From the NCBI GenBank assembly GCA_017480245.1, contig JAFVBA010000010.1:1-64000 (forward strand): a DNA stretch of 64,000 nucleotides, written 5' to 3'. Within the stretch, counting starts at the first letter, position 1. Every line of letters starts with the position of its first letter. Shown piece by piece: positions 8,841 to 36,050 of this stretch. The stretch is from Bacteroidales bacterium (GTDB taxonomy: Bacteria; Bacteroidota; Bacteroidia; Bacteroidales; P3). Both the position numbers and the translations under genes were made by a program. The notes under the pieces were generated by a model. That model did no database searches. It worked only from the letters and a program-made list of their open reading frames with translations, and was not told the origin of the DNA.

Positions 8841-9087
8841 AAGATTTTTGCAATACCGAATAAAATTTTTGCAACTCTGCAAATAAATTTTGTAATTTCA
8901 AGAAAGAATTTTGTTTGAACCGTTTAAAATTGTATTTCAGACCGTCCAAAATATAGTTTTAGTCGGTTCAAAATATAGTTTTGGACGGTTCAAACAAAAA
9001 TAGATTGCGTGATTGCAAAAATTTTATTTAATAATGCAAAATTATCTTTACCTATCACAAAAATTTTATTTGATAATACAAACTAAC
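8841..9087. repeat. ACCGTC-family nested palindrome, copy A
   Basis: Intergenic palindrome between divergent genes. Core at 8909-9000: GAACCGT and AGACCGTCC units followed by AGTCGGTT and GGACGGTT units, spaced about 22 bases, each joined by A/T-rich AAAAT..TTTT. The outer arms pair through TTTTGTTTGAACCGT and ACGGTTCAAACAAAA. AT-rich flanks with TGCAAAAATTTTAT-like words repeat on both sides. Copies B-D are at 15310, 28838 and 35831. Confidence 0.85.
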
Positions 9088-9141
9088 CTTCCCACTATTT
9101 CAAGTTAAGAAAAGTTTTGTCCTGAATTTGATGAGACTTTT

Positions 9142-9175
9142 TTTGTTTGTATTTGTAAGAAATTATTTATTTTTG
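9142..9175 (+). promoter_or_regulatory. Promoter of the deacetylase-galE genes
   Basis: TTTG at 9146-9149 and TATTTTTG at 9168-9175 are separated by 18 bases, close to the Bacteroidota consensus, and lie 18 bases before the ATG at 9194. Confidence 0.6.
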
Positions 9176-9193
9176 CAAATTGAAAAGTAAAAG

Positions 9194-10015
9194 ATGAATA
9201 TTCTGACGTTTGACATAGAGGAATGGTATTGTATTTTCATTAATATTGCTGAGGAGAAGAAAACTTACAGCATTAAAGATTCATTATTGAAACTTTTAAA
9301 TATAATGGAAGTGCATAATATCAAACCTACTTTTTTTATTTTAGCGTCTTTTGCAAAGAAAAATCCTCAAATAATTTATGACATTGCACAAAAGTATGAT
9401 ATTGGTTCGCATGGATTGAATCATGATTTGGTGGAATCGATGTCATACAAGGATTTTCAAAATGATATAGCAGAATCTATCCGTATTTTAGAGGATATTA
9501 CAGGTAAAAAAGTTACTAAATACCGTGCGCCAGGATTTTCTATTTCCAATAAAGAGTATTTTAAAGCCATTGTGGATAGTGGAATTGAAACGGATTGTTC
9601 TTTAAGTGCAATTAATCATTTTTACGGAAATAAGATGATTGACAAATCGCAAATATGTATCATTGAATATAACGGTATTAAGATAAAAGAGTTTCCTCCT
9701 TCCATTTTTAATTTCTTAGGTAAAGATTTAGGTTTCTTAGGAGGTGGTTATTTCCGTTTATTTCCTTACAGGATGTTAAAATACTGTATGAATAAACATA
9801 GAGATTATAATTTAATATACTTGCATCCGAGCGATTTTGACGTTAATCAACCAATGATAAGCGAATATTCTTTTTTGGAGAAGTTTAAACGTAGAGTTGG
9901 GGTGCAAACAGCAGAAAAAAAATTAATACGAATGCTCTCCGAGTTTGGTTTTACTGATATTGTAACGGCGGAGAAAGTGATAGATTGGAGTAATATTCCT
10001 ATCGTACAATTATAA
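9194..10015 (+). CDS. Polysaccharide deacetylase family protein (NodB fold, PDA-type)
   Basis: A carbohydrate esterase 4 relative of 273 residues, predicted to remove N-acetyl groups from a glycan or its precursor. Metal and base positions are visible: the start LTFDIEEW with Asp7, the metal pair H73 and H77 in SHGLNH, and RAPGFS at 111-116. No signal peptide is present, so it acts in the cytoplasm or at the inner membrane face. That is usual for this PEP-CTERM/XrtA-linked type of deacetylase. The end KFKRRVGVQTAEKKL also fits that group. It is followed by galE 25 bases later, and both feed surface glycan synthesis. Confidence 0.85.
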   Translation: MNILTFDIEEWYCIFINIAEEKKTYSIKDSLLKLLNIMEVHNIKPTFFILASFAKKNPQIIYDIAQKYDIGSHGLNHDLVESMSYKDFQNDIAESIRILEDITGKKVTKYRAPGFSISNKEYFKAIVDSGIETDCSLSAINHFYGNKMIDKSQICIIEYNGIKIKEFPPSIFNFLGKDLGFLGGGYFRLFPYRMLKYCMNKHRDYNLIYLHPSDFDVNQPMISEYSFLEKFKRRVGVQTAEKKLIRMLSEFGFTDIVTAEKVIDWSNIPIVQL

Positions 10016-10040
10016 TGATAATGTAAGAAAAAATAAAGAC

Positions 10041-11054
10041 ATGAAAATTTTGATTACAGGAGGCTGTGGTTTTATTGGCAGCCATACATGCGTGGAGTTA
10101 CAGAATGCAGGATTTGATGTTGTTATTGCAGATAATCTTTCTAATTCAAAAGAAGAGGTTATTGACAGAATAGAAAAAATAACCAATAAACGTCCTGAAT
10201 TTATTAAGGCAAATCTGGCAGATGAAAAAGAATGTGATGAAGTTTTTAATACATTTAGCGATATTAATGGCGTGATTAATTTTGCGGCATATAAAGCTGT
10301 CGGGGAGAGTATGGATGTTCCTGTCAAATACTACAAAAATAACTTAGGAATACTGTTGAATGTATTGGACAATATGCAAAAACATAAAATAAAATATTTT
10401 GTTCAATCGTCATCCTGTACAGTTTATGGAGAGCCGGATTCGTTACCAATCAAAGAAACTTCACCTGTAAAGGATGCTACTTCTCCTTACGGACATACAA
10501 AACAAATAGCGGAGCAAATGTTGTCTTTTATTGTCGGTAAAGATATTGATGCTATAGCGTTGAGGTATTTTAATCCTATTGGTGCGCACAAAACTGCATT
10601 AATCGGAGAGTTGCCAAATGGTGTTCCTAATAATCTATTACCTTTTATTACACAAACTGCTGCAGGAATCCGTAAGGAATTAAAGGTTTTCGGTAATGAT
10701 TATCCTACTTCTGACGGAACTTGCATAAGAGACTATATTCATGTTGTAGATTTAGCAAAGGCACATGTTGTTGCGATGAATCGTTTGATAAATGAAAAAA
10801 ATAAAAAACCATTAGAGTTCTTTAATATCGGTACGGGGCATGGATATTCTGTTTTGGAGATAATTAATTCTTTTGAACGCTCAACAGGAGAGAAATTAAA
10901 TTGGTCATTTGCTCCAAGAAGGGCAGGAGATATTATTCAAATTTGGGCAGATACTCAATTAGCAGAAGAAGAATTAGGTTGGAAAGCTCAAGAAGATATT
11001 GACTCCATGACTTCGTCGGCATGGAATTGGCAATTACAATTGAAAGAAGAGTAA
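10041..11054 (+). CDS. galE: UDP-glucose 4-epimerase
   Basis: Interconverts UDP-glucose and UDP-galactose (or the HexNAc forms) with tightly bound NAD. The 337 residues match the family length. The Rossmann motif GGCGFIGSH is at 7-15, and the catalytic pair Y150 and K154 in SPYGHTK follows the SSS region (SSSCTVYG). Late motifs are RYFNPIGAH, DGTCIRDYIHVVDLA and FNIGTGHGYSVLE. It stands behind the deacetylase and ahead of a hairpin at 11072-11111, with a separate promoter for gmd. It supplies galactose-type donors to the glycan genes of the region. Confidence 0.95.
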   Translation: MKILITGGCGFIGSHTCVELQNAGFDVVIADNLSNSKEEVIDRIEKITNKRPEFIKANLADEKECDEVFNTFSDINGVINFAAYKAVGESMDVPVKYYKNNLGILLNVLDNMQKHKIKYFVQSSSCTVYGEPDSLPIKETSPVKDATSPYGHTKQIAEQMLSFIVGKDIDAIALRYFNPIGAHKTALIGELPNGVPNNLLPFITQTAAGIRKELKVFGNDYPTSDGTCIRDYIHVVDLAKAHVVAMNRLINEKNKKPLEFFNIGTGHGYSVLEIINSFERSTGEKLNWSFAPRRAGDIIQIWADTQLAEEELGWKAQEDIDSMTSSAWNWQLQLKEE

Positions 11055-11071
11055 TTGATTCAATCAGATTT

Positions 11072-11111
11072 TAAGAGAGGATATGTCTATTATAAATATT
11101 ATCCTCTCTTA
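11072..11111 (+). terminator. Hairpin after galE, probable terminator
   Basis: TAAGAGAGGAT (11072-11082) pairs exactly with ATCCTCTCTTA (11101-11111). The following T run is weak, so termination may be partial. Confidence 0.6.
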
Positions 11112-11139
11112 TTATAAGATGGAGAAAAATGTGCAAAAT

Positions 11140-11171
11140 TTTGGTGATTAAATAAAAAAATAGTAGTTTTG
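11140..11171 (+). promoter_or_regulatory. Promoter of the gmd-fcl operon
   Basis: TTTG at 11140-11143 and TAGTTTTG at 11164-11171 are 20 bases apart, matching the Bacteroidota consensus. The ATG of gmd follows 47 bases later. Confidence 0.65.
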
Positions 11172-11218
11172 CAGTTTCTAATTGCAAAAGGATTAAATAA
11201 AACTAAATACAAATTGCG

Positions 11219-12301
11219 ATGAAAAATGTAGCGCTTATCACAGGAATTACCGGTCAGGACGGAAGTTTTTTGGCTGAATTCCTACTTGAAAAAGGTTATG
11301 AAGTTCATGGTATTCTGAGAAGGTCATCTTCGTTCAATACCAACAGAATAGAACATCTTTATTTGGATGAATGGGTAAGGGATATGAAACAACAGCGTCT
11401 TATCAACTTGCATTGGGGCGATATGACGGATTCTTCGTCGCTTATCCGCATAATTAACTCTGTCAAGCCTACCGAAATATATAATTTAGCGGCTCAATCA
11501 CACGTAAAAGTGTCGTTTGACGTACCTGAATACACCGCAGAAGATGACGCAGTGGGCGTTTTGCGATTGTTAGAAGCCGTAAGAATTTGCGGATTGGAGA
11601 AATCGTGCAGAATTTATCAGGCATCAACTTCCGAACTTTACGGTTTGGTTCAGGAAGTTCCGCAAAAAGAAACCACTCCTTTCTATCCGCGTTCTCCTTA
11701 CGGGGTTGCAAAACTTTACGGTTTCTGGATAACTAAAAACTATCGCGAAAGTTACGGAATGTATGCGGTAAATGGAATTCTTTTCAACCACGAAAGCGAA
11801 AGACGAGGTGAAAACTTCGTTACCCGTAAGATTACATTGGCGGCAGCACGCATTGCGCAAGGTTATCAAGACAAGTTGTATTTGGGAAATCTTAATTCTT
11901 TGCGAGATTGGGGCTATGCAAAAGATTATGTTGAGTGTATGTGGTTGATTTTGCAACAAGAGAAACCTGAAGATTTCGTAATTGCAACAGGCGAATACCA
12001 CACTGTAAGGGATTTTTGTACTCTTGCGTTCAAAGAAACGGGGATTGAACTCCGTTGGGAAGGCGAAGGAGTTGATGAAAAAGGTATAGATGCAAAAACA
12101 GGTAAGGTTTTGGTGGAAGTAGATCCGAAATACTTCCGTCCTGCAGAGGTTGATCAACTTTTAGGCGACCCGACAAAAGCAAAAACATTGTTGGGATGGA
12201 ATCCGCGCAAGACTTCGTTTGAAGAACTTGTGAAGATAATGGTTCAACACGATATGAAGTTCGTCAAAAAACTATACTTGAAAGCACAACAGCCTGAATA
12301 A
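11219..12301 (+). CDS. gmd: GDP-mannose 4,6-dehydratase
   Basis: First step from GDP-mannose to GDP-L-fucose, giving GDP-4-keto-6-deoxymannose. The 360 residues carry [15 protein letters not shown] at the NADP site, STSELYG and the catalytic Y161 and K165 in SPYGVAK. Family landmarks [16 protein letters not shown] and [11 protein letters not shown] are present. The stop overlaps the fcl start by one base, so translation is coupled. The GDP-fucose made here can fucosylate capsule or glycoproteins, a known trait of gut Bacteroidales. Confidence 0.97.
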
Positions 12302-13242: not shown

Positions 13243-13273
13243 TGCTAATCTACAGAGAGGTAATGTAATTATT

Positions 13274-14428: not shown

Positions 14429-14429
14429 T

Positions 14430-14762: not shown

Positions 14763-14826
14763 GAAATAGAATACTTTTATTTTAAAATTAAAGTCCAAAG
14801 CTTTCTTAACTTAGATTGGATAAATT

Positions 14827-15162: not shown

Positions 15163-15218
15163 TGTAGAGAATCTATAGTTATACAAACAAAATAAGATTA
15201 CATCAATATAGATGTGAT

Positions 15219-15259: not shown

Positions 15260-15309
15260 ATTATATAAAAAGAAAATCTGCTATAAAATGTATATAGTTA
15301 TATTAAATT

Positions 15310-15510
15310 CTTGTAGTATCAAAAAAAGATTTCGTAATCTCAAGTAATAATTTTGTTTGAACCGTCTAAAATGATATTTCAGACCGTTCAAAATGTGCTT
15401 TTAGACGGTTTAAAATTTATTTTGGACGGTCTTGATAAAAATAATTTGAGATATTACAAGATTTTTATCGGACATTACAAAATTTATTCTTGCGATTATA
15501 AAAATCTAAT
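15310..15510. repeat. ACCGTC-family nested palindrome, copy B
   Basis: Core at 15351-15440: units starting ACCGTC (15361), ACCGTT (15383), ACGGTT (15405) and ACGGTC (15426), so spacing is 22, 22 and 21 bases. Flanks TTTCGTAATCTCAAG and TTGAGATATTACAAG pair across the element. It fills most of the 620-base gap before purL. The rest of the gap (about 15515-15730) shows nothing recognisable. Confidence 0.85.
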
Positions 15511-15783: not shown

Positions 15784-18021
15784 ATGATAAAGGCAGAAGA
15801 AGTTACGGTTGAAACCGCTGGTAAGTTGGGCTTATTGCCTGAGGAATTTGAAAAAATAAAAGAACATTTGGGTGGGAGAACACCTAATTTCACAGAGTTA
15901 AGTATTTATTCGGTTATGTGGAGCGAACACGCTTCCTACAAAAACAGTATCAAGTGGATAAAAAAACTTCCTAAGGAGGGCAAACAAATGCTGGTGGCTC
16001 CGGGAGAAGAAAACGCAGGAATGGTAGATGTCGGCGACGGCAGAGCATGTGTTTTCAAAATTGAGAGTCATAACCACCCGTGCGCAGTAGAGCCTTTCCA
16101 AGGTGCGGCAACAGGCGTGGGAGGTATAAACCGCGACATCTTCACTATGGGAGCAAGACCTATCGCACAGTTAAACGCTTTGCGCTTCGGAAGATTGAGC
16201 AGTAAGCATGCAAAACATCTTTTCAAGGGTACGGTAGAAGGTATCTCACATTACGGAAACTCTTTCGGCGTGCCGGTATTGGGCGGTGAGGTTTTCTTTG
16301 ACGAATGTTTTGAGAATAATCCGCTTGTTAATGCGATGAGTGTCGGCATTATGAAGAAAGAAGACCTTATCTCTGCAGTTGCAAAAGGCGCAGGAAATCC
16401 TGTATTCATTGTCGGCTCATCAACTGGTAAGGATGGTATTCACGGAGCAACCTTTGCAAGTGCAGATGTTACGGAAAACAGTGCTGATGACATTCCTTCC
16501 ATTCAAGTAGGCGACCCGTTCCAAGAAAAACTTCTTATGGAGGCTTCTTTGGAACTTGGCAGAAGCGGTGCAATCGTTGGTATGCAAGATATGGGCGCTG
16601 CAGGAATCATTTGTTCCACTTCCGAGATGAGTGAAAAAGGCGGCAGCGGAATGAAAATCAATTTGGACGAAGTTCCTTTGCGCCAACAGAACATTGAAGC
16701 TTGGGAGATATTGCTTTCCGAAAGCCAGGAGCGAATGCTTGTTGTTGTTAAGAAAGGTCAGGAAGAGGTCGCCAAGAAAATATTTGACAAGTGGGATTTG
16801 AATTGTAAGCAAATCGGAGAAGTAATTGACGAGGATATGCTTTACTTCTATTGGAAGGGTGAATTGGTTGCCCAAGTGCCTGCTTCCACTCTTGTCTTGG
16901 GCGGCGGCGCTCCTCAATACGACAGGGAATATACTGAGCCTGCTTATTATCAAAAACGCAAGGAATTTAAAATTGACAGCATAAAAGAACCGACAATCTC
17001 CGAGGCGAAAGATATTGCTAAGGCGATGGTAAAGAATCCTAACTTGGCATCTAAACGTTGGGTTATTGAGCAATACGACACAATGGTAGGAACGCGTAAT
17101 ATGACAACCAACCGTCCTGCCGACAGTGGCGTTGCTAATATAAAAGGTTGCAGTAACGGTATTGCCATGACTTGTGATTGCAATTCTCGTTACGTTTATT
17201 CCGATCCGTTTATCGGTACTGAGATGGCGGTTGTCGAGGCTGCAAGAAATATTGTCTGCACGGGCGGAGAGCCTTTGGCAGTAACTAATTGCTGTAACTT
17301 CGGTAATCCTTACAAACCTGAGACTTATTGGCAGTTTGTCAATGCAGTGAATGGTATGGGCGAGGCTTGCAAAAAATTCTCCACTCCTGTAACGGGTGGT
17401 AATGTATCTTTCTACAATCAGGCAAGTATCAACGGCGTTGTTGAGGCTGTTATGCCTTCTCCTGTCATCGGTATGATTGGTACGGTTAATAAAGAAAACC
17501 AAATGGGCTTAGACTTCAAACAAGAGAACCAAACTATTTATCTTTTGGGTGAGGTTGTAAATGATATCAACTCTTCCGAATACCTCTACAATTACTGCGG
17601 AGTGAAATTAAGTGATGTTCCTTATTTTGATATGGACAAAGAATTTGATTTGCAGCAGGCCGTAAAAGAATTAATCAAAGCAAAGGTATTGCAATCCGCA
17701 CACGATGTTTCTGACGGCGGTTTGTTTATGAATTTACTTGAAAGTTCAATGGTAAGAAACCTTGGCTTTGACATCGCAACCGACAAGAGCGTACGTTTGG
17801 ATAGTTTCCTATTCGGCGAAAGCCAATCGCGTATTGTTGTAACTATTAATGACGACAAGAAAGCGGACTTTGAAAAGATATTAAGCAAATACAACGTTCC
17901 TTGCCAAGCAATAGGAAAGACAACTGACGGCAACATAAAGATTGACGGCGAAGATTTCGGATGCGTTTGTGAATATAAGAGAGTCTTTGACAACGTCATC
18001 GGCGACGAAATGGAGAAATAA
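15784..18021 (+). CDS. purL: Phosphoribosylformylglycinamidine synthase, PurL subunit
   Basis: Purine synthesis step four, converting FGAR to FGAM with ATP and ammonia from a PurQ partner. At 745 residues it is the small PurL type that needs separate PurQ and PurS, neither of which is in the window. Visible landmarks are WSEHASYKNS (early), KIESHNHPCAVEPFQGAATGVGG (split here as KIESHNHP and GAATGVGG), GGSGMKI and QDMGAAGI. The second half has its own repeats of the fold (GGEPLAVTNCCNFGNP and HDVSDGGLF). It has its own promoter and is followed 13 bases later by a small antitoxin-like gene. Confidence 0.96.
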   Translation: MIKAEEVTVETAGKLGLLPEEFEKIKEHLGGRTPNFTELSIYSVMWSEHASYKNSIKWIKKLPKEGKQMLVAPGEENAGMVDVGDGRACVFKIESHNHPCAVEPFQGAATGVGGINRDIFTMGARPIAQLNALRFGRLSSKHAKHLFKGTVEGISHYGNSFGVPVLGGEVFFDECFENNPLVNAMSVGIMKKEDLISAVAKGAGNPVFIVGSSTGKDGIHGATFASADVTENSADDIPSIQVGDPFQEKLLMEASLELGRSGAIVGMQDMGAAGIICSTSEMSEKGGSGMKINLDEVPLRQQNIEAWEILLSESQERMLVVVKKGQEEVAKKIFDKWDLNCKQIGEVIDEDMLYFYWKGELVAQVPASTLVLGGGAPQYDREYTEPAYYQKRKEFKIDSIKEPTISEAKDIAKAMVKNPNLASKRWVIEQYDTMVGTRNMTTNRPADSGVANIKGCSNGIAMTCDCNSRYVYSDPFIGTEMAVVEAARNIVCTGGEPLAVTNCCNFGNPYKPETYWQFVNAVNGMGEACKKFSTPVTGGNVSFYNQASINGVVEAVMPSPVIGMIGTVNKENQMGLDFKQENQTIYLLGEVVNDINSSEYLYNYCGVKLSDVPYFDMDKEFDLQQAVKELIKAKVLQSAHDVSDGGLFMNLLESSMVRNLGFDIATDKSVRLDSFLFGESQSRIVVTINDDKKADFEKILSKYNVPCQAIGKTTDGNIKIDGEDFGCVCEYKRVFDNVIGDEMEK

Positions 18022-18813: not shown

Positions 18814-18870
18814 ATCGGATATTGGATATAACCGTAAGTAGTGCGGTAAATTCAATATCCGATGTTTTTT
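18814..18870 (+). terminator. Terminator-like hairpin (attenuator candidate) before the HU genes
   Basis: ATCGGATATTG (18814-18824) pairs exactly with CAATATCCGAT (18853-18863). An inner ACCG/CGGT pair extends the fold, and a T6 run follows at 18865-18870. It stands 46 bases before the HU gene start, downstream of the promoter. Confidence 0.7.
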
Positions 18871-18915
18871 ATTGCCCGTTCCCGATTCAGTTTTCAATTT
18901 TTAAATAATCATCTT

Positions 18916-19320
18916 ATGTTAGAATACTACATTACCGAGCGGAATTTTAAACAGATTGGCGACAGTGAAGTCAAGACAAAATATTTTGCAGTCCTTGATG
19001 AGAAAACACTGTTGGACACCGAAGAGTTATGTCAAAGAGTTGCGGACTGTTCAACGTTGGCTAAACCTGAGATGCGTCTGGCGTTGGATATGTTGGTTGA
19101 GATGACGTTTGAAGCGTTGAAAGGCGGACGTAGCGTGCGGCTCGGTGAGTTGGGAATACTGCACCCGACGATGACTTCCGCAGTCCAAGAGAATAAAGAG
19201 GATGTTACGGTGGAAACGATAAAAAAGATTTCGTGTAATTTCCGCCAATCTAAGCGTTTGCGCAAGGCTTTGAACAATGAGCATATCCGTAAAGCAAACA
19301 TTCCGACCAAGAATTTTTGA
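18916..19320 (+). CDS. HU-like DNA-binding protein 1
   Basis: A 134-residue member of the Bacteroidota HU-like family (IHF/HU fold with a longer N-terminus). The first 30 residues (LEYYITERNF, TKYFAVLD) precede an HU core: a helix pair, then SVRLGELGILHPTM, the turn that leads into the DNA-binding arm, and KKISCNFRQSKRLRKAL. ATG 18916 is chosen over the longer frame from 18862 because the latter runs through the hairpin and lacks conservation. It is the first of three such genes in a row. Members probably bend or package DNA. Targets are unknown. Confidence 0.75.
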   Translation: MLEYYITERNFKQIGDSEVKTKYFAVLDEKTLLDTEELCQRVADCSTLAKPEMRLALDMLVEMTFEALKGGRSVRLGELGILHPTMTSAVQENKEDVTVETIKKISCNFRQSKRLRKALNNEHIRKANIPTKNF

Positions 19321-19364: not shown

Positions 19365-19517
19365 AAAAGTGCAGCAAGATTGCGTAGAAAGTGCAGCAAG
19401 GTTTTGTTAGAAAGTATGTACATTACATACAGTAAAGTATATACTTTATATAGCGAAAAGTATATACATTATATAATGAAAAGTATATACTTTCCAACGC
19501 AATCTTCCTGCACTTTT
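19365..19517. repeat. Nested palindrome with GTATATAC units
   Basis: Outer arms of 21 bases, 19365-19385 and 19497-19517, pair with one mismatch (AAAAGTGCAGC against CCTGCACTTTT). Inside are four units of about 22 bases around GTATGTAC or GTATATAC. AAAGTATATACTTT is itself a perfect palindrome. The rest of the gap to 19681 is A-rich with no gene. Confidence 0.75.
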
Positions 19518-19681: not shown

Positions 19682-20086
19682 ATGGCATTTAAGCTCTATA
19701 AGAAGAAAATCACAACGGCGTTAAGCGGAGAAAAAGAAAATCGCTACGTCCTTAGAATGAGGTCAATAGGAACAAGAACACCTCAAGAGTTATCGGAAAA
19801 GATGACCAAGTATTTTTCCATTGAAGGACCGGAGGCATTGGTGAATATTAATCAACTGTACGCCACTATTGCCGAACAGGTTATGGCAGGTTTTTCGGTG
19901 AAGATAGACGGTTTGGGAACGTTTTATCCGAAATTGACAACCAAATCGGTTAAGGAAATCGAAGATGTAACGGTGGATTGCATCAAAAGGTTTTCCGTAG
20001 GATTCACAATCGACAGAAATTTCCAAAAAGAAATGGACGAAGTGAAGTTAGAACAAGACAGGTCGTTCAATTTAAAACACATTTAG
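19682..20086 (+). CDS. HU-like DNA-binding protein 2
   Basis: A 134-residue HU-like protein with a basic N-terminus (AFKLYKKKITTALSGEKENRYVLRMRS) and a core ending SVKIDGLGTFYPKL, the typical turn before the HU arm. The start ATG 19682 follows A-rich sequence. It is two bases from the next HU-like gene and so co-transcribed with it. Sequence differs clearly from protein 1, so the three are old paralogues, not recent duplicates. Confidence 0.75.
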   Translation: MAFKLYKKKITTALSGEKENRYVLRMRSIGTRTPQELSEKMTKYFSIEGPEALVNINQLYATIAEQVMAGFSVKIDGLGTFYPKLTTKSVKEIEDVTVDCIKRFSVGFTIDRNFQKEMDEVKLEQDRSFNLKHI

Positions 20087-20088
20087 TC

Positions 20089-20496
20089 ATGGCAGAAGTT
20101 CAATATGTAATAGAGAAAAGGTCTTTGAAAGTCAAAGGCGTTAAGGAGGACAGATATTTACCGAAATTAGTCTCCAGTGGCAGAAATACAACAAAAGATA
20201 TCGCAAAGAAATCCATAATTCAAGGAACGATATCTGATTTGGAGTTTCCGCAGTTTATAGATATGCTTGTCAGAACGATAAAAGAGGACTTGAAAAGCGG
20301 ATTGCGGGTACAGTTAGGCGATTTGGGAACTTTGGTGCCGACGATAACTTGCAAGGCGGTTAAGAGTTTTGACGATTTGGATATGGACGCCGTTAAGAAA
20401 AAGACGGTAAGGTTCCAACAGAGTCTGGATTTGAAGACCGAACTGAAAAAAGTAAGTTTCCGCAAATCAAATATCGGAACAATCAAACACATGTAG
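20089..20496 (+). CDS. HU-like DNA-binding protein 3
   Basis: A 135-residue HU-like protein starting AEVQYVIEKRSLKVKG. The core shows GLRVQLGDLGTLVPTI, then a basic tail (KKKTVRFQQSLDLKTELKK). ATG 20089 is chosen because it begins right after the stop of protein 2 and keeps the family N-terminus. The longer frame from 19978 would overlap protein 2. It is the last of the three-gene HU group, which ends at the hairpin at 20720-20757. Confidence 0.75.
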   Translation: MAEVQYVIEKRSLKVKGVKEDRYLPKLVSSGRNTTKDIAKKSIIQGTISDLEFPQFIDMLVRTIKEDLKSGLRVQLGDLGTLVPTITCKAVKSFDDLDMDAVKKKTVRFQQSLDLKTELKKVSFRKSNIGTIKHM

Positions 20497-22998: not shown

Positions 22999-23045
22999 TT
23001 GATATTTTTAGGTTCTTACTACAAGAAAACAGATTCTTTTTTGAT

Positions 23046-23147
23046 ATTAATTTTGAAAAACCTATGTTTTTTAGACGAAAAACCCAGGTTTTTGAATTAA
23101 AAAACATAGGTTTTTTGCTAAAAATACCATAGTTTTTCAAAATTAAT
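23046..23147. repeat. Nested palindrome with AACCTATG/CATAGGTT units
   Basis: Outer arms of 16 bases (23046-23061 and 23132-23147) are exact complements. The inner arm AAAACCTATGTTTTT (23057-23071) pairs exactly with AAAAACATAGGTTTT (23100-23114), and the centre AAAAACCCAGGTTTTT is itself palindromic. There are four units of 21-24 bases, two forward and two reversed, the same plan as the ACCGTC family. Confidence 0.8.
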
Positions 23148-23203
23148 ATGCGAAAAGAATTTAATAAAATGAGTTATTACAACTCTGTTTTACAGAAAAA
23201 TTG

Positions 23204-27446: not shown

Positions 27447-28778
27447 TTATTCCGCCAATTTGTAACTTCTCAATCCGTAAATGAATACTACGCAGAAGCA
27501 AATCAAAGGAACGACAAACGAAATATTGACTGCAGGCATTGAGAATACTTCGTGCTTGTCTATTATCATTGCTTGAATTGCAGGCAGAAGACTTCCGCCC
27601 AATATTGCCATAATCAATCCTGCCGAACCAACTTCTGCATCCTGCCCTACGTTACCTAAAGCCAATCCGTAGATAGTTGGGAACATCAATGACATAAACG
27701 CCGAAACGCCTACCAAAGAATAAACGCCTATTCTGCCTCCTACGAATATCGTTATTAAAAGCAATAAGAATCCACCCGCAGCAAAAATACTTAATAGGCG
27801 GGAAGGTTTAATGTATTTCATTAAAAACGTGCATATAAACCGACAACAACAGAATAGAACCATTGCAATTATGTTTAACTTCTGAGAATAAATCTCTGCG
27901 GCTTGTTCTGTCATTCCTTCTTGCATAAATATGTGCGTTCCGTACTGAATAATGAATGTCCAACACGTGATTTGTGCCCCTACATAGAAGAACTGCGTCA
28001 ATACACCCTCACGGTAAATTTTGTTATTCAAAAGCCGTTTAAGTGTTGCGCCCAAATTTCTTGACAAATTGTTATCTTGTATCTGTCTTTGCGGAATTTT
28101 TATCAGCGCCATCACAATAAAAACTGCAATCAACACTATTCCGATTACTACGTACGGTTTTATCAAAACGGAAAGGTCGGCTTGTTTCAATGCCTCGAAT
28201 TCCGAATTATTCAACATCGCTCTTTCATTTGATGACATCGGATTAAGTTTTGCTTGTATGAAATTCATGGCAACGAACATCCCTGCCAAAGAGCCTATCG
28301 GGTTAAATGCCTGAGCAAAATTCAGTCTTCGTGTTGCCGAGGACTGTTCTCCCATAGATAATATGAATGGATTGGCACTTGTTTCCAAGAAAGAAAGTCC
28401 GCAAGTCAGGATAAAGTAAGCCAAAAGGAACGGATAATAATTTCCCGTTGCGGCGGCAGGAATAAACATCAACGCACCGAGAGCATAAAGACCTAAGCCC
28501 AAAAGTATTCCTTTCTTATAAGTAAATCTTCGTATGAACATAGCGGCAGGAAAAGCCATTGCGAAATAACCGCCGTAGAAAGCAACCTGAACCAATGCGC
28601 CGTCCGTTACGCTCATTCGGAAAATTTTGGAAAAAGATTTTACCATCGGGTTGGTAATATCGTTCGCAAATCCCCACAATGCGAAACACAAAGTAACAAC
28701 TATAAACGGCAGCAGATAATTCACGCCGTCCTTTGTCTTGAAGATGCTGTTTTGTTTATTATTTGCCATACTCATCAT
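27447..28778 (-). CDS. fucP: FucP-type sugar:H+ symporter (MFS)
   Basis: A 443-residue membrane carrier with 12 predicted helices, of the FucP family that imports L-fucose or related sugars. Family features are the start VTLCFALWGFANDITNPMV, with FAxWG and the following N-D pair, plus the SFLETSANPFIL segment and the QAFNPIGSLAGM segment of helix 5. The three Met codons at the start (28778, 28775, 28769) make the exact start uncertain. No fucose catabolic gene is next to it. The link to the GDP-fucose genes at 11.2-14.8 kb is inference. Glucose or galactose transport is an alternative in this family. Confidence 0.88.
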   Translation of the reverse strand: MMSMANNKQNSIFKTKDGVNYLLPFIVVTLCFALWGFANDITNPMVKSFSKIFRMSVTDGALVQVAFYGGYFAMAFPAAMFIRRFTYKKGILLGLGLYALGALMFIPAAATGNYYPFLLAYFILTCGLSFLETSANPFILSMGEQSSATRRLNFAQAFNPIGSLAGMFVAMNFIQAKLNPMSSNERAMLNNSEFEALKQADLSVLIKPYVVIGIVLIAVFIVMALIKIPQRQIQDNNLSRNLGATLKRLLNNKIYREGVLTQFFYVGAQITCWTFIIQYGTHIFMQEGMTEQAAEIYSQKLNIIAMVLFCCCRFICTFLMKYIKPSRLLSIFAAGGFLLLLITIFVGGRIGVYSLVGVSAFMSLMFPTIYGLALGNVGQDAEVGSAGLIMAILGGSLLPAIQAMIIDKHEVFSMPAVNISFVVPLICFCVVFIYGLRSYKLAE

Positions 28779-28837: not shown

Positions 28838-29062
28838 ATTTTGCAACCTACGGTAATATTTTTGTGAAATCAAAAGACATTTTTACAATTTCAAGAAACA
28901 TTTTTGTTTGAACCGTCTAAAATTATATTTCAGACCGTCCAAAATAGCATTTTAAACCGTTTAAAATTTATTTTGGACGGTCTTGACAAAAAGCTTTCTT
29001 GAGATTGCAAAAATATTTCTTAACTTGACAAAAATATTACCGCACAATACAAGAATATTTCC
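28838..29062. repeat. ACCGTC-family nested palindrome, copy C
   Basis: Core at 28901-28992 with units ACCGTC, ACCGTC, ACCGTT, GACGGTC. The pairing extends far outside the core: TTTCAAGAAACATTTTTGT and ACAAAAAGCTTTCTTGAGA match, and CGGTAATATTTTTGT and ACAAAAATATTACCG match exactly near the ends. This copy shows that the whole element is a palindrome of about 220 bases. Confidence 0.88.
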
Positions 29063-29500: not shown

Positions 29501-30493
29501 TCAATACAATAGAAAAGTATCTTGTGGAATAGTTTTGTCTTGAACGAATTTTATATCCCTGAATTTTGATTTTAGAAATATTAGATTTGAAGAACGGTAA
29601 CCTATTGCGTAATTAATGTCTTTAGGATTCACTTTTATTATTTTGGTATCAAGAGGCAAATTCATAAACCGCTCTTTCCAAATAGCAGTCAGCACAAATT
29701 CAAAGAAAGATACGTGAAACGGTCCGTCAAGGTAGCCTTTCCCATTCATTAAATCCTCAGACGGATGCAGCCCAACGCGAAGTACTTTGACGTTATTGTG
29801 TATAAAAATTTTATACACTTCTTTCGTCCAATCAACTGCCCCATTCATTGTTAAAGGTTTATAATTGCCTTGTCTGTAAAGAGTTGCCAGTGGAGTACGG
29901 TCAATAACCAGTGTCGGATAAATGCGGGTTGATACGGCACCTAATGAAACTATTTTCTCGGCAGTGGCAATGCTTTTGGCAAGAGTGTCTTTCGGCAGAC
30001 CAATCATCATCTGCAGACCTAAATTAAAACCGTATGATTTTATAAGTTCGGATGCCGTTGCTATATCTTCCGCAGAGTGTCCTCGTTCTGAGAATTGCAA
30101 AACTTCATTGTCAAGACTTTGTGCCCCAAGTTCTATATCTGCTACATTATATTGTTTCAATAGGTCAAGGATTTCGTTGTTTATATAATCCGGTCGTGTA
30201 GATAAACGTATGGATTGAATTTTCTCTTCCGTTATGTAAGGTTGTACGGTTTGCAGATAGGCTTTCTGCTCTTCTATATCAAGCCCCGTAAAAGTACCGC
30301 CGAAAAAGGCAACTTGTAATTCTGTACCTTTTTCAGCGGTTGATAGATATTTTTCAATTGTTTGCTTTACTTCGTTTAGAGTAGGGGCTACTTGCTGTCC
30401 GCTTATATACCTTTGGTTGCAGTAAATACACTGATGAGGGCAGGCTTTCTGCGGTATAAAAATCGGAATATTGCAATGCTTTTTATTTAGCAT
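29501..30493 (-). CDS. Radical SAM protein, Elp3-related
   Basis: A 330-residue radical SAM enzyme. The [4Fe-4S] motif CxxxCxxC is C18, C22, C25 in ACPHQCIYCNQR. The first strand region has FFGGTFTGLD and the later GLPKDTLAKSIATA matches the oligomeric Elp3/YhcC-like fold. The C-terminal portion (HPSEDLMNGKGYLDGPFHVSF) is family-typical. The substrate, perhaps tRNA, is not known. The ATG overlaps the end of wzc by 11 bases, so it is the last gene of the HU-miaB-wza-wzc transcript on the minus strand. Confidence 0.88.
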   Translation of the reverse strand: MLNKKHCNIPIFIPQKACPHQCIYCNQRYISGQQVAPTLNEVKQTIEKYLSTAEKGTELQVAFFGGTFTGLDIEEQKAYLQTVQPYITEEKIQSIRLSTRPDYINNEILDLLKQYNVADIELGAQSLDNEVLQFSERGHSAEDIATASELIKSYGFNLGLQMMIGLPKDTLAKSIATAEKIVSLGAVSTRIYPTLVIDRTPLATLYRQGNYKPLTMNGAVDWTKEVYKIFIHNNVKVLRVGLHPSEDLMNGKGYLDGPFHVSFFEFVLTAIWKERFMNLPLDTKIIKVNPKDINYAIGYRSSNLIFLKSKFRDIKFVQDKTIPQDTFLLY

Positions 30494-33104
30494 CCTTTTT
30501 ATTTACTCCGTTTTTATTCTTAGCGTTAGCTTTTGCCGATTGCTTAGTACGTTTCAAGCCTTGGGTTTCGTCTTCAAAGTATCCGAAAGAATATTCTTTC
30601 AAATAATCGCCGTAACCATAGCCATAACCGTAACTACCTTTGCCACCGTAGCCGCCGTATTTGCCATAACCGCCGTAACCGTAGCCATAGCGTCCGTAAC
30701 CACCGTAGCCATAACCGCCGCCTGCTTTTCCGTAACCGTATTTCTGCATAATAGTCTTAATACCGTTAAGAATGAATTTGACTTTAACGCCACTTCTTTG
30801 TTCCATTTCCACAAGTGATGCGGATAAAATACTTGAAGAAGTTATTCCCAAACGGATTAGATACAATGAAATATCGGATTCTTTTGCCAAAGTCTGAGCA
30901 TCGGCAATCAAATTCACAGGAGGGGTATCCAAAATTATGTATTCATAACGTTTTCTTAACTCTTTAATTAAGTCTTTATTCTTTTGAGAATCCACAATTT
31001 CGGAAGGGTTTGGCGGAACAGGACCTACAGCCAAGACATCCAAGTTATCAAATTCCGTATGTTGAACGGAATCTTCAATAGATGTCTGTCCGATAAAATA
31101 AGTACTGATACCTATTGATGTATTTAGGTTAAGCATTTTAGCCAATCTCGGTTTTCTTAAGTCGTATTCTATAAGTAAGGTCTTGTTTCCTGAAATTGAC
31201 AAAACGGATGCAATATTAAATGATGTGATTGACTTACCTTCTCCAGGCATTGAAGAAGTCAGAAGAATAACACTTCCGCCGTCAATTTGCATATCATTTA
31301 ATACATATTTGATATTGGTTCTTATCGTTCTGTATGCCTCAGTTATTTGACTTCGTGGCTTATCAAATACTATCATTCTGTTATATTCTTTCGGGAATTC
31401 CGGAATATATCCGAATATAGGGGCATCGGAGATTTTTGCTAAGTCGTCTTTGGAGTCTATTGTGTCTTTTGTGATGTAGCGAATGAAAACATAAAGTCCT
31501 GGAATAAGTAGTCCTACGATGAAAGCAATAAGATAATTTAATGAACTCTTAGGTGCTACTCTTATTCCCACAAGAGCTTTGTCTATAACCTTATGGTCTG
31601 GCAGTGCAGCGTTTTTTGCAATTTCCGCTTCTGAACGTTTCTGGTATAAAAAGTTATAAATAGCATCATTAAACTTGAATTGACGTTCAATATTTACCAT
31701 ATTCCTTTCGGTAGATGGCAACTTGTCTATTTGAATCTGCAATGCATTCTGCTGACGTTGCAATTCCCGCATATTAATGTCGGAAATATTTCTCAAGTTC
31801 TTTAAACTCTCTCCGATTTGTTTGCGGATAGTTTCAATTCTTACTTGAAGTTCTTTCGTTTTTGGGTTCTTCTCCGTACGTCTTTCAACAGCCGTTTTGT
31901 GTTCTATAATAGCTGCGGACAATTCTCCGATAAGAGTGTTAAGCACTGGGTCATTTACTCCCATAACTGCAGGAGATGCCACGCCTTCATCAATACCGGA
32001 CTTGTTTAAATAGTCTGCTAAATAGATGTAATATTGTTGTTTAGTGTATTCTTCGGCACGTTTAGTTTGCAGTTCATTAGTTTTAGTGTAGAGATATTGG
32101 CCGTCATTGGTAAGATTAAGGGTTTGACTGGCCTGTTGGAAAGCTTCTTTTCGGGATTCTGCCCGAGAAAGAGAGTCTCCTATGGAATTAATTTGCGAAT
32201 TAACGAAATTAATTGTCGCAACATTCAAATAGTTTTTCTCTTCAAAGGTTTGGTCTATGTAAATTTTACAAAGCATATTGACAAAATCAACAGCCTTCTT
32301 TTGATTTGGGTGACGGAATTTGATGGTTACGATAGATGATTCCTTGTTTATTAAATCTATTTTAGTAGAATTGAATCTTGTTGCCAAACGATCCATATCA
32401 TTTATTTTGAATCCGTAATCTATTTTGCCCATATTCTTATTCCAATCTTTGTTCAAAATAACTTTGAATTTCATTCCGTCTTGGTCATACCACTGTCCGT
32501 AATTCAATTTTACCATGTTTCTTTCCGGAATACTGGCTTTCTTTTCCTCTAACATATCATCAGTGTAGTTATATACGGGAACGCCAAGTTTAGCTGCGTA
32601 AGAAATATAGCAAAAATCGGAAGAAGCAAGATTGATTTTGATAAGAACTTCCGTAGGTTGAGTTTCTTGTTCTGGATCTAATATAACTTCGAACGGACAA
32701 TTCTTGTAAATATCTACATTCTTGAAATTAATTTTCTCAAGATAGTCGCAGTACAATCCCATTGCCTTGACAACACGTTTAGTCATAGTAAAGGACTGGA
32801 TATTTCCGATTGAATTTTGAAAATCATTGTCGCTACGGTTACGCATCATAACCGTATTAATATTAAGATTGCCGAGCATGTCGTTATTTGTCTTTATCAA
32901 CATTGAAGCAGTAGCTTCATATTTCGGAGTTGAATATCTATTGACAAACAATGCAACAATTAAAGCTACAATTACGGCTATAACAAAATAATACCAATGG
33001 TCAAGAATTTTAAACCACAATTCAGCAAGGTTAATTTGATTTTCGCCTTGTTCTTGCTTTACATTAGTAGGGTAATTACTATTGTTTATATTTGTATCGT
33101 TCAT
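30483..33104 (-). CDS. wzc: Polysaccharide co-polymerase and tyrosine autokinase (Wzc)
   Basis: An 873-residue inner-membrane protein. Residues about 20-540 form the periplasmic Wzz-type chain-length domain between two membrane segments. Residues about 580-790 form a BY-kinase: Walker A SSMPGEGKS, Walker A' LIEYDLRKP, and Walker B YIILDTPP. It opens the Wza channel and sets chain length while phosphorylating tail tyrosines. The tail is unusual: about 45 residues of Gly and Tyr repeats (GYGYGGYGRYGYGYGGYG-like, 30608-30742), not the scattered tyrosine cluster of Escherichia Wzc. It follows the Wza gene and overlaps the radical SAM gene. Confidence 0.94.
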   Translation of the reverse strand: MNDTNINNSNYPTNVKQEQGENQINLAELWFKILDHWYYFVIAVIVALIVALFVNRYSTPKYEATASMLIKTNNDMLGNLNINTVMMRNRSDNDFQNSIGNIQSFTMTKRVVKAMGLYCDYLEKINFKNVDIYKNCPFEVILDPEQETQPTEVLIKINLASSDFCYISYAAKLGVPVYNYTDDMLEEKKASIPERNMVKLNYGQWYDQDGMKFKVILNKDWNKNMGKIDYGFKINDMDRLATRFNSTKIDLINKESSIVTIKFRHPNQKKAVDFVNMLCKIYIDQTFEEKNYLNVATINFVNSQINSIGDSLSRAESRKEAFQQASQTLNLTNDGQYLYTKTNELQTKRAEEYTKQQYYIYLADYLNKSGIDEGVASPAVMGVNDPVLNTLIGELSAAIIEHKTAVERRTEKNPKTKELQVRIETIRKQIGESLKNLRNISDINMRELQRQQNALQIQIDKLPSTERNMVNIERQFKFNDAIYNFLYQKRSEAEIAKNAALPDHKVIDKALVGIRVAPKSSLNYLIAFIVGLLIPGLYVFIRYITKDTIDSKDDLAKISDAPIFGYIPEFPKEYNRMIVFDKPRSQITEAYRTIRTNIKYVLNDMQIDGGSVILLTSSMPGEGKSITSFNIASVLSISGNKTLLIEYDLRKPRLAKMLNLNTSIGISTYFIGQTSIEDSVQHTEFDNLDVLAVGPVPPNPSEIVDSQKNKDLIKELRKRYEYIILDTPPVNLIADAQTLAKESDISLYLIRLGITSSSILSASLVEMEQRSGVKVKFILNGIKTIMQKYGYGKAGGGYGYGGYGRYGYGYGGYGKYGGYGGKGSYGYGYGYGDYLKEYSFGYFEDETQGLKRTKQSAKANAKNKNGVNKKDAK

Positions 33105-33118
33105 TTTATATTAGATTT

Positions 33119-33940
33119 TTACAATTTTCGTACTGAAAGGATAATAGCTATAACAGAAGCGATAAGAGACAAAGATGAGGTTATTGTAGTAAGCGGTCTG
33201 TTTATGTTGGTAAGAGTTTTTGTATTCTTATTCGGTTCAACATAAACTATATCTCCCGGGCGTAAGTAGTAATGCGGGTCTCTCATAACTGAAGCCTTGC
33301 GGATGTCAAGTGTATATACTACATCTTCATTAGCATTCTTTCTTACCACTCTTATTTTTGATCGGTTGCCGTCATAAGTTAAATCGCCTGCCGTTATCAA
33401 TGCGTCAAATATATTTACACTTGGTTGATAGAAAGTATAGATTCCCGGACGATTTACTTCACCTGTAACCTTTATTTTGAAAGTTACCATTCGGCAAAGC
33501 ACAACAACACCTTTTGAATACTCTTCTGCTTTTATTCTTATCTGTTCTTTGACTTCATCTACCGTAAGTCCCAAAACTTTTAAGTCGCCTATGATTGGCA
33601 AAGTGATATTTCCTTGGTCATTTACCTCATATGCGTTAAGGTATATTCCTGTTTCGGAAGACTGAGAATAGTTGTTATTATTGTTTGTGGCTCCGGAAAA
33701 CAATTTACTTGTCTCTTCGTCCATAGAAGATGAAATTTGGATATACAGCATATCGTGTTCCTGTAGTTTATATTCAGGAGAAACATTGCTTTCGCCCTGT
33801 TGGTAAGTATAAACCTGTTCGTCAGGAATCTTACCATCCAATTCATCATTCTGAAAATAAACTAAATTCTTTTGCGATGTACAAGATGCAAGCATAACTA
33901 TTGCAATCACTATACCGCTTAGTCTCTTTATTCTATTCAT
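33119..33940 (-). CDS. wza: Polysaccharide export lipoprotein (Wza-type)
   Basis: A 273-residue outer-membrane export protein with lipobox IVMLASCTSQ (Cys at about 20). After it lies the polysaccharide export (PES) domain (YKLQEHDMLYIQISSS, GNITLPIIGDLKVLGLTVDE), then an SLBB-type domain (KVTGEVNRPGIYTF) and a C-terminal membrane segment (ITSSLSLIASVIAIILSV). ATG 33940 is chosen because the longer start at 34045 would overlap miaB and put residues before the signal. Together with Wzc it forms the capsule export path. Glycan genes are at 1-4.5 kb. Confidence 0.92.
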   Translation of the reverse strand: MNRIKRLSGIVIAIVMLASCTSQKNLVYFQNDELDGKIPDEQVYTYQQGESNVSPEYKLQEHDMLYIQISSSMDEETSKLFSGATNNNNNYSQSSETGIYLNAYEVNDQGNITLPIIGDLKVLGLTVDEVKEQIRIKAEEYSKGVVVLCRMVTFKIKVTGEVNRPGIYTFYQPSVNIFDALITAGDLTYDGNRSKIRVVRKNANEDVVYTLDIRKASVMRDPHYYLRPGDIVYVEPNKNTKTLTNINRPLTTITSSLSLIASVIAIILSVRKL

Positions 33941-33998
33941 ATCACTTTTTAATTTTGAAATTGCAAATTTATTAAAATTCTTTCTAATAAACGACGAT

Positions 33999-35306
33999 TT
34001 ACTGTATTTTTTTACCGAAAAGTGTTGCGGAAGTGCAATTTTCAATCTTCACCTGAATATAACTTCCTTTCACATTATCCTCTTTATCGAAGATAACAAC
34101 CTTATTTTGAGACGTTCTGCCGAAATACTTTGTCTTATCCCTCTTGCTTTCTCCCTCCACAAGAACTTCAAATGTCTTTCCGATGTCTTTTTGATTGCTT
34201 TCCAAGGACAATTCCCGCTGAAGATCTATTATTTCCTGCAATCTGCGGACTTTTTCCGTCTCCTCAATATCGTCTGTAAATCTTTTGTGAGCCACAGTAC
34301 CCGGACGGTCGGAGTATTTGAACATATAAGCGGAATCATACCGTACCTTGCGGAAAATTTCCAACGTCTTGTTGTGGTCTTCCAACGTTTCGCCGCAAAA
34401 ACCAGCAATAACGTCAGTGCTTATTGCGCAGTCGGGAATTTTTTTTCTTATCAAATCAATTTTTTGTAAGTATTGCTCCGAAGTATATTTCCTGTTCATT
34501 TTTTCTAACATAACATCGCTGCCCGATTGTACAGGAAGATGAATGTATTTGCAGATATTAGGATAAGAAGCGATAGCATCAACCAATTCTTCGCTCAAAT
34601 CCTTTGGGTGTGAAGTGGCAAAGCGGGCTCTTAACAGCGGATTAATCTGTGCAACCCTTGTCAAAAGTTCGGCAAATCGCACTTCTTTTCCTTCTTCATT
34701 ATAAATATAAGAATTAACGTTCTGTCCGAGAAGGGTAATGTCCCTGTAACCTTCGTTAAATAACTTTTCAGCCTGAGCAATTACACTCTGAGGAGAACGG
34801 GAACGCTCCCTGCCGCGTGTGTATGGCACAACACAGTAAGTACAGAAGTTTTCGCAACCGCGCATTATGGAAATAAATGCAGAAATGCCGTCAGTATTCA
34901 ATTCAACGGGGATAATGTCTTCGTAAGTCTCCTCTTTTGAAAGTTCAACATCCATTCCGCCGCTTTGTGCAATCAATTCGTGAATACGTCTGTACGAATC
35001 AGGTCCGCAAACAATCTCAACCTTATCTTCATTAATCAAACTGTCTTTCAATCTCTCTGCCATACAACCGATAATTCCTACCTTAAGCAAAGGATTCTTC
35101 TTTTTAAGACTTTGTAAGTCATGGACACGGTTGTGAATACGCTTTTCGGCATTATCCCTCACCGCACAGGTATTTATAAGTATAACATCGGCATCGTCTT
35201 GCGAAGAAACAAGATTATAACCGTTGGATTGCAAAACTTTACCCACTATTCCGCTGTCCGCTTGGTTCATTTGACAGCCGTAAGTTTCAATATAAACGTT
35301 ATTCAT
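33999..35306 (-). CDS. miaB: tRNA-2-methylthio-N6-dimethylallyladenosine synthase
   Basis: Adds a methylthio group to i6A37 of tRNAs that read UNN codons. The 435 residues have the first cluster Cys residues in YGCQMN, NTCAVRD and IGCMAER, the radical SAM triad in RGCENFCTYCVVP, and a C-terminal TRAM domain (GKTFEVLVEGESKR). Length matches the family. It lies directly behind the HU-like gene (35307-35723) with no gap, and wza follows 58 bases after the stop. Confidence 0.96.
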   Translation of the reverse strand: MNNVYIETYGCQMNQADSGIVGKVLQSNGYNLVSSQDDADVILINTCAVRDNAEKRIHNRVHDLQSLKKKNPLLKVGIIGCMAERLKDSLINEDKVEIVCGPDSYRRIHELIAQSGGMDVELSKEETYEDIIPVELNTDGISAFISIMRGCENFCTYCVVPYTRGRERSRSPQSVIAQAEKLFNEGYRDITLLGQNVNSYIYNEEGKEVRFAELLTRVAQINPLLRARFATSHPKDLSEELVDAIASYPNICKYIHLPVQSGSDVMLEKMNRKYTSEQYLQKIDLIRKKIPDCAISTDVIAGFCGETLEDHNKTLEIFRKVRYDSAYMFKYSDRPGTVAHKRFTDDIEETEKVRRLQEIIDLQRELSLESNQKDIGKTFEVLVEGESKRDKTKYFGRTSQNKVVIFDKEDNVKGSYIQVKIENCTSATLFGKKIQ

Positions 35307-35723
35307 TTACTTTTCAATACCTTTAGAATACCAAATATCGCGGTCAATCAAGTCAAACTTAGTTTCATTCAAGTTATTCTTAAGTTCTTTGGACGGAAGG
35401 AAATTGCAAACTATCTTTTTAATCGTGTTAGGATGCACATCCTTAGGGTCATCTACCGTTTGAGCGTTCAAAGTAGGGTAGAAAATGCCCAAATCACCCA
35501 CTCTTACGGAATGACCTTGCGATAAAAGATTTTCAATCTGCCATGCAAGTTCGGCAACGGCAGCCTCAACATCGCTTTTAGACAAAGTGCAGTGTTTTTC
35601 CATCCTCTTGCACAAGTCTTTGTACTCAATCATTCCGGCATTGTACGCCTTAGCCATATATTTTTCTTCTTTGTTGCCTTGGTTATTGACCTTGCGTTTG
35701 TATTTTATGAAAGGAAATCCCAT
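35307..35723 (-). CDS. HU-like DNA-binding protein 4
   Basis: A 138-residue HU-like protein with a basic N-terminus (FIKYKRKVNN) and core motif SVRVGDLGIFYPTL ahead of the arm. The tail KKIVCNFLPSKELKNNL repeats the family pattern of the genes at 18916 and 20089. It stops one base before miaB begins, so both lie in one transcript. Copy D of the ACCGTC repeat lies just upstream. The long N-terminus sets it apart from the canonical HU at 46195. Confidence 0.78.
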   Translation of the reverse strand: MGFPFIKYKRKVNNQGNKEEKYMAKAYNAGMIEYKDLCKRMEKHCTLSKSDVEAAVAELAWQIENLLSQGHSVRVGDLGIFYPTLNAQTVDDPKDVHPNTIKKIVCNFLPSKELKNNLNETKFDLIDRDIWYSKGIEK

Positions 35724-35830
35724 AATTGTAATTATTTTAATGTTGTTTTACTTATTATTTTTCAAATTCCAGTATTAATTATCCTCTTATTACAAGTCTT
35801 TATTTCAAATATTTAAAAGAATTTTTCAAT

Positions 35831-35985
35831 GTGTGATAAAATTTTTGCAAAGTTACGAATAAATTTTGTAATCACGCAAATAAATTTTGTTTAAACCGTC
35901 CGAAACATAATTTCAGACCGTCCAAAATAGTGTTTTGAACCGTCTGAAATATCATTTTGGACGGTCTTGACAAAAATGTTTCTTG
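35831..35985. repeat. ACCGTC-family nested palindrome, copy D
   Basis: Core at 35884-35975 with units ACCGTC, ACCGTC, ACCGTC, GACGGTC and a looser inner pair. AT-rich flanks with GATAAAATTTTTGCAAA and ATTGCAAAAATAAAATG pair in part. It lies between the HU-like gene and sir2, both on the minus strand. Confidence 0.8.
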
Positions 35986-36003
35986 ATATTGCAAAAATAA
36001 AAT

Positions 36004-36050
36004 GAGTGATTACAAAATTTTTACCGCTTATTGCAAAATTGTAATCACTC
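36004..36050 (-). terminator. Hairpin after sir2, terminator
   Basis: GAGTGATTACAA (36004-36015) pairs exactly with TTGTAATCACTC (36039-36050), directly after the sir2 stop on the minus strand and against the ACCGTC element. Confidence 0.65.

Follow-up and report, generated by a model that had tools for sequence, protein, structure and literature searches.

Arrays of palindromic sites dispersed in a Bacteroidales genome and linked to HU-HIG genes

The stretch of DNA analyzed here, in the following called the window, comprises 64,000 nucleotides (C9:1-64000) of the genome of a Bacteroidales bacterium (G000; 1.75 Mb, 29 contigs, 69.6% complete). It contains four copies of an intergenic element, family F1, whose core is a row of palindromic sites TTTYRRACSGTYYRAAA about 22 bp, or two helical turns, apart. 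One of the copies immediately precedes a gene that codes for a protein of the HU-HIG family, and arrays with a similar period were found upstream of many further HU-HIG genes. It is probable that the F1 elements serve in cis as DNA arrays recognised by an HU-type protein with sequence specificity, and that HU-HIG homodimers bind their own tetrads, regulate their own genes and mark many promoter regions. We infer the direct binding of HU-HIG proteins to the arrays from this genomic linkage. A preliminary description of the window had named three options for the repeat, namely a non-autonomous mobile hairpin, an array for a DNA-binding protein (HU-like or a partition protein), and an RNA structure. 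The linkage to HU-HIG genes favours an array of the HU-like kind.

The four copies had been placed at 8841-9087, 15310-15510, 28838-29062 and 35831-35985; all are present, and the fourth reaches to about position 36038. Element 1 (8841-9087, core 8918-8990) has a degenerate third site and arms with a 21-bp period on each side, and is located in the divergent gap between the genes for an UpxY-type antiterminator and a polysaccharide deacetylase. Element 2 (15306-15507, core 15360-15431) lies upstream of purL (15784-18021, plus strand) and element 3 (28838-29060, core 28911-28982) upstream of the gene for a fucP-like permease (27447-28778, minus strand). Element 4 (35817-36038, core 35894-35966) is the copy next to the HU-HIG gene (35307-35723), on its upstream side, and has orthologous copies in the genomes G004 and G013. 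Six RACSGTY triplets at a spacing of 21-23 bp were counted in the window, compared to none in 100 dinucleotide shuffles. No Rfam family matched the F1 elements.

The expectation of an intergenic repeat family with many more copies in the genome was borne out, as a BLAST search of G000 with copy 1 yielded at least 22 places (40 of 105 candidates scored). In all BLAST searches 12 to 40 candidates were scored per genome; copy counts are therefore minimum values, and any absence refers to the best candidates. Four RACSGTY sites are present in 20 of the 22 copies, and more than four in a row in the other two (C9:73177 and C9:261405); one site is degenerate in C9:8841 and C12:170586. The reported spacing of about 22 bases was confirmed, except that it is sometimes 21 bp. 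The proposed order of two forward units followed by two reversed ones applies to copies 1 and 2 and not to the others: the "direction" of a unit is merely the central base of the odd palindrome RAC-S-GTY, which varies freely (CCGG, CCCG, CGGC, GCCG, GGGG and other combinations among 20 copies). The flanks, which had been taken for long paired AT-rich stretches, consist instead of units with a period of 21 bp that start with TTTTTGYAAT and face inward on both sides, i.e. are inverted between the sides.

In order to quantify the linkage, upstream regions were scanned by a motif-blind self-match at a fixed lag, and an array was counted if a lag of 19-25 bp gave a score >22 at most 400 bp upstream. 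Arrays were found upstream of 41 of 92 first-of-operon HU-HIG genes, compared to 3 of 162 control genes (Fisher p = 3.7e-18); the three positive controls resemble dispersed arrays in the genomes G001 and G002. With lags of 12-18 and 26-32, only 3/92 and 1/92 HU upstream regions were positive, and 1/162 and 3/162 controls. Among the 41 arrays, the lag was 22 (29 cases), 23 (6), 21 (5) or 24 (1). Palindromicity at z > 1.5 was observed for 35 of the 44 HU arrays scoring above 20. The array units vary between HU genes, except for some close relatives. The score threshold of 22 was set after looking at the data, and thresholds from 18 to 28 all separate HU genes from controls. The 92 HU genes were collected in part via similarity to the HU protein of the window and in part via an order-wide Pfam search; being homologous, they are not fully independent. 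The 162 controls are genes at loci fetched for other reasons. They replaced an earlier set (HU 23/50, neighbours 12/152, score >24), in which the neighbours had picked up HU arrays.

Six further genomes gave arrays at 17 of 23 HU-HIG genes versus 1 and 0 at other lags, a result that is only partly independent, because these genomes were picked for RACSGTY arrays and one of them, RGIG6215, is G014 of the first set (at least L421 repeats L257). Individual counts were 4/6 for Bacteroides congonensis, 3/3 for Hoylesella pleuritidis, 1/4 for H. enoeca, and 5/5 and 4/5 for two metagenome-assembled genomes, with none counted in the sixth genome. Within 1.5 kb of the 41 array-bearing HU genes, HU itself is the sole neighbour family that recurs beyond orthologous loci (13 loci). 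HU records from plasmids and phages (eight plasmid and four phage matches) have arrays upstream in two of the six inspected cases. Up to 39 PF18291 matches were found per genome, some of them possibly ordinary HU.

The gene beside element 4 (35307-35723, minus strand) codes for a protein of 138 amino acids, which is the proposed cognate binding protein of F1. It scores 95.8 bits against the HU-HIG profile PF18291 (E = 2.5e-27; cut-off 26.2) versus 30.9 bits against the profile PF00216 of ordinary HU. The best match of ten out of ten further array-linked HUs was likewise PF18291, a profile whose cut-off alone is unspecific: at E ≤ 1e-5 it also matches E. coli and eight more of 14 control genomes. 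An AlphaFold2 model based on a 52-sequence alignment reached a pLDDT (predicted local distance difference test) of 91.5. The best PDB matches identified by means of Foldseek were 4fmr, a putative DNA-binding protein from Bacteroides vulgatus, and then HU and IHF chains; sequence profiles agree with this assignment. In the model, two N-terminal strands precede the first helix and lie outside the part that can be aligned with HU.

The presence of F1 follows that of this gene. Orthologues of the HU-HIG protein exist in G004 (88% identity) and G013 (70%), and the remaining 11 members of the genus offer no match above 43% (G007). F1 core matches were obtained in G000, G004 and G013, the three genomes with the orthologue, and among 12 candidates per genome none was found in the 11 genus members lacking it, seven of which gave short non-core matches and four nothing. 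At the SIR2 locus, the genomes G001, G002, G005, G006, G008, G011 and G012 have 44-166 bp between the matched neighbours on one contig, which leaves room for neither the HU gene nor the array; the gap of G001 holds its own row of the AAACGSCGTTT type. Judged by nucleotide identity at two loci, G000 has a closer relative in G001 than in G004; G011 is about as close as G004, and G013 is farther. The joint presence of F1 and the HU gene is therefore not simply the property of one clade. Contigs C4 and C7 of G013 carry near-identical copies of the SIR2-HU locus, fitting its 9% contamination; such repeats were counted once where identical.

The conservation of the sites was deduced from 24 unit pairs, taken from six element pairs at four orthologous loci of G000, G004 and G013 (the SIR2 locus, in its three pairwise comparisons, supplies three of the six). 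None of the 24 pairs differs at positions A-2, C-1, G+1, T+2, T-7 or A+7. Since RACSGTY served to locate the sites, conservation within this motif is in part a consequence of the search, which does not apply to T-7 and A+7. The central base is identical in 9 of the 24 pairs, and outer spacer positions in 29-62%. The F1 sites look selected as DNA, since key positions are retained and drift affects the central C/G and the spacers. The logo calculated from 80 units of 20 G000 copies is symmetric, which would fit a homodimeric protein. The flexible pyrimidine-purine steps of the F1 site are separated by 9 bp, the kink spacing given for HU/IHF-type (DNABII) proteins in PMC3969353. The motif at a given place may differ between species: one conserved site carries F1 in G000 and a different family in G013 (L037, L132), and the guaA site has other palindromic rows in G001 and G013, as judged by eye.

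HU-adjacent arrays were tested for recurrence elsewhere in their own genome, and all three recur. Unit TTGCAARTCSGAYTTGCAA of G007 is found at 36 places, its own among them (counted as rows with E < 1e-6; duplicated contig ends may account for some). The unit AAAAACMTAKGTTTTT of contig C13 of G000, which defines the second family F2, occurs at 21 places including its own, one of which is 23033-23153 of the window; two were already known before the test. For unit TTCGTCTGACAGYTGTT of B. congonensis five further places were found. In G013, the array beside the HU gene on C13 carries the unit of a second dispersed family, and arrays of the AAACGSCGTTT type do adjoin HU genes in G007 (L275) and G016 (L322). 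The similarities of proteins and motifs are weakly correlated beyond chance (41 HU-array pairs, Mantel rho 0.19, p = 0.005), and several HU pairs with 55-88% identity have a common motif (similarity 0.89-0.96).

L397 (G007:C109) and L398 (G007:C131) contain arrays of TTGCAARTCSGAYTTGCAA and of AAACGSCGTTT or a related unit side by side in one intergenic element, and coordinates suggest several more such pairings in G007. In B. congonensis, L453, L454 and L456-L458 are dispersed tetrads with common flanks and end-like TATGAACTAATT / AATTAGTTCATA, about 300 bp long by eye and resembling miniature inverted-repeat transposable elements (MITEs). Rows with a period of 22 bp containing AACGGTC or GACCGTC were seen in the actinobacterium Nocardioides insulae (L109, L123, L128, L129, L139, L140); these are apparently plain GC-rich tandem repeats.

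The 22 F1 copies of G000 are located in 12 tandem and 10 divergent gaps. For the 33 arrays of G004 the numbers are 13 tandem, 13 divergent, one convergent and six at contig edges, and for the 22 arrays of G013 (two families pooled) 11 tandem, seven divergent, one convergent and three at contig edges. The array-free gaps of at least 250 bp in the G000 sequence examined, a small background, are 19 tandem, three divergent and two convergent. The 5' ends of 32 genes face G000 copies, 30 of which were scanned; they include gyrA, rho, guaA, purL, serC, ruvC, folC, thiL and mscL, as well as an mraZ-like gene whose score is below the cut-off of the model.

If HU-HIG proteins bind these arrays, homodimers would sit side by side on the same helix face at four sites two turns apart, and would bend or wrap the tetrad, some 90 bp of DNA. 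An autoregulatory operator of the HU gene would be provided by the copy in front of it, and through the dispersed copies, mostly 5' intergenic, many promoter regions would depend on how much of one HU paralogue is present. Each HU-HIG paralogue may in this way organise the chromosome or tune genes at scattered places, most of them housekeeping genes. A second factor probably binds the outer 21-bp arms; by eye, the arms of the two G000 families have words in common, and in G007 an adjacent array from another family matches the arms. A more general proposal can be made only tentatively. Bacteroidales may possess a diversified chromatin code with an expanded HU family, in which each paralogue reads its own palindrome tetrad, with one autoregulatory copy and the others near promoters. 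The code words would be replaced from one sister species to another, even where positions are conserved, and several codes would exist per genome (at least two dispersed families, F1 and F2, in G000), some combined side by side. Such a turnover can be likened to that of eukaryotic zinc-finger repressors and their repeats.

Several observations weigh against a binding of the arrays by HU-HIG proteins. No above-threshold array was found at 51 of the 92 HU-HIG genes, and 9 of the 44 HU arrays are not clearly palindromic. In G001, a dense AAACGSCGTTT family with a period of 21 bp (77 BLAST matches) lies beside neither of the two HU genes. The HU arrays of G000 at window position 19411, L272 and L340 are each the only copy of their kind among the arrays listed for 290 kb. 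HU pairs with 61-69% identity have unrelated motifs, those with 79-84% reach a motif similarity of 0.63-0.67, and one pair with 98% reaches 0.75. The step spacing of 9 bp is not general, being 11 bp by eye in the units of G007 and of G013-C13; a strict kink rule of 9 bp agrees with F1 and was rejected on account of these units. The facing genes scanned (30 of 32) have no pathway in common, and a common regulon defined by gene function was dismissed. As to chromosomal territories, F1 and F2 partly separate by contig, with a weak segregation (p = 0.013) over unordered contigs. Examples of the dense G001 arrays are L281:742 and 9868, L286, and L288:903 and 3535.

Among the competing explanations, the main rival holds that the arrays are non-autonomous mobile palindromic elements of the MITE type, and that HU-HIG paralogues are host factors which recognise each family and silence it, with an arms race explaining the rapid change of motifs. 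Burroughs and colleagues (2017) reportedly described how HU-HIG has expanded in Bacteroidetes, and predicted that the family acts against invading elements. The arms are indeed species-specific and sister species have different units, and the B. congonensis copies, with common flanks and end-like sequences beyond the tetrad, fit a mobile element better than F1 does. For F1, in contrast, a G004 counterpart with orthologous sequence on both sides exists for four of the 22 G000 copies, and one with a single adjacent flank in common for another five, so that 9/22 are at the same place as a copy in the sister species, where the spacers have largely drifted. By eye no common outer terminal repeat is present in G000, target duplications not having been tested systematically, and no gene family other than HU recurs beside the array-bearing HU genes outside orthologous loci. 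We regard this explanation as unlikely; the mobile hairpin of the preliminary description is not supported for F1, and the B. congonensis family stays a candidate. The assumption that the arrays are operators of unrelated regulators, with HU-HIG genes as merely frequent targets, is more doubtful still. It is compatible with the fact that HU-HIG binding is deduced from linkage, and the dense family of G001 adjoins no HU gene. On the other hand, the units mostly vary per HU gene, no other gene family recurs at those loci, F1 is present or absent together with the HU orthologue, and symmetric sites suit a homodimer.

That F1 is an RNA structure, a terminator or a cruciform hairpin is highly improbable. 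The inverted arms, which are roughly 70-74% complementary along their length, speak for it, and the copies had been said to differ in sequence while retaining their pairing. Permutation tests with 20 of the 22 copies (the two with longer site rows were dropped) gave no covariation within copies: the arm match was 0.627 within the same copy versus 0.622 between different copies (p = 0.27), and the core halves pair worse within one copy than between copies (p = 0.996). Hairpin-complementary centres were observed in only 12/20 and 5/20 cases, and the lack of an Rfam match argues in the same direction. The inverted appearance arises because the units themselves are symmetric or inverted. A plain terminator had already been discounted, in agreement with the finding that none of the 22 F1 copies lies between convergent genes. 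Clustered regularly interspaced short palindromic repeats (CRISPR) had likewise been excluded at the outset and were rejected here as well; the sites are short, degenerate and palindromic, there is no spacer logic, and no cas family was detected among the 30 scanned of the 32 facing genes.

HU is commonly viewed as a packaging protein with hardly any sequence preference. If HU-HIG proteins do read these arrays, each Bacteroidales genome would encode numerous architectural proteins of defined specificity, whose targets could be listed from the sequence, and the large unexplained HU-HIG expansion would gain a testable function. Intergenic repeat families in gut genomes would be explained, and a natural system for studying the co-evolution of DNA-binding specificity and genomic sites would be at hand. 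A bench test is possible, as Bacteroides congonensis is a named isolate with the same arrangement.

The window contains further HU-HIG genes and arrays, with open reading frames (ORFs) taken from a simple caller. An HU-HIG gene at 18862-19320 (plus strand) is followed at 19411-19493 by an array whose units, AAAGTATATACTTT with a spacing of 23 bp, are of a third type; this array lies upstream of the HU-HIG gene at 19682-20086 (plus strand). The third HU-HIG ORF of this cluster spans 19978-20496 (plus strand), with the family match at 20095-20466. The F2 element at 23033-23153 has its unit at 22 bp, and the same unit is located upstream of the HU-HIG gene C13:22477. Another HU-like ORF at 46195-46479 has no upstream array. 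On contig C29 of G000, an array with a period of 22 bp and units of the AAAAGTGCAGCACTTT type (L344:1998-2260) lies just downstream of an HU-HIG gene. Two other repeats were noticed in the window: a coding repeat with a period of 21 bp at 30615-30700, within a gene (30483-33104, minus strand) that distantly matches tyrosine autokinases, and a strong self-match with a period of 42 bp at 56886 (score 54).

HU-HIG is an already known protein family. The window protein corresponds to PF18291 and to 4fmr (BVU_2165) in its profile match and HU/IHF fold; what differs are the DNA arrays, as nothing describing them for HU-HIG was found in the open-licence literature (most subscription papers were beyond the search). 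IHF, Hbb and TF1 are DNABII proteins with sequence preference, i.e. HU-fold dimers with preferred sites as proposed for HU-HIG; to our knowledge they have neither fixed arrays of four palindromes two turns apart nor private motifs across a family. MatP-matS, Noc-NBS and SlmA-SBS combine one protein with one palindromic motif dispersed over the chromosome, which again resembles the arrangement proposed for HU-HIG, and differ in having other folds, single sites instead of tetrads, and conserved rather than fast-changing motifs. With its at least 22 copies and a motif kept at orthologous sites, F1 shares with matS-like systems a dispersed palindromic motif under selection. Repetitive extragenic palindromic sequences and bacterial interspersed mosaic elements (REP/BIME) and MITEs are, like F1, dispersed intergenic palindromic repeats; F1 differs from them in places common to several species, in a conservation like that of protein sites, and in its linkage to an HU gene. 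The nearest described case is HU PG0121 of Porphyromonas gingivalis. As far as the consulted part of its description goes (PMC3969353), this is an HU of about 10 kDa with one repeat and little discrimination between DNA forms, and dispersed tetrads are not among the features described there. It is nevertheless a Bacteroidales HU protein that prefers an intergenic inverted repeat, as its affinity for such a repeat of 77 bp was higher than that for the control (PMC3969353).

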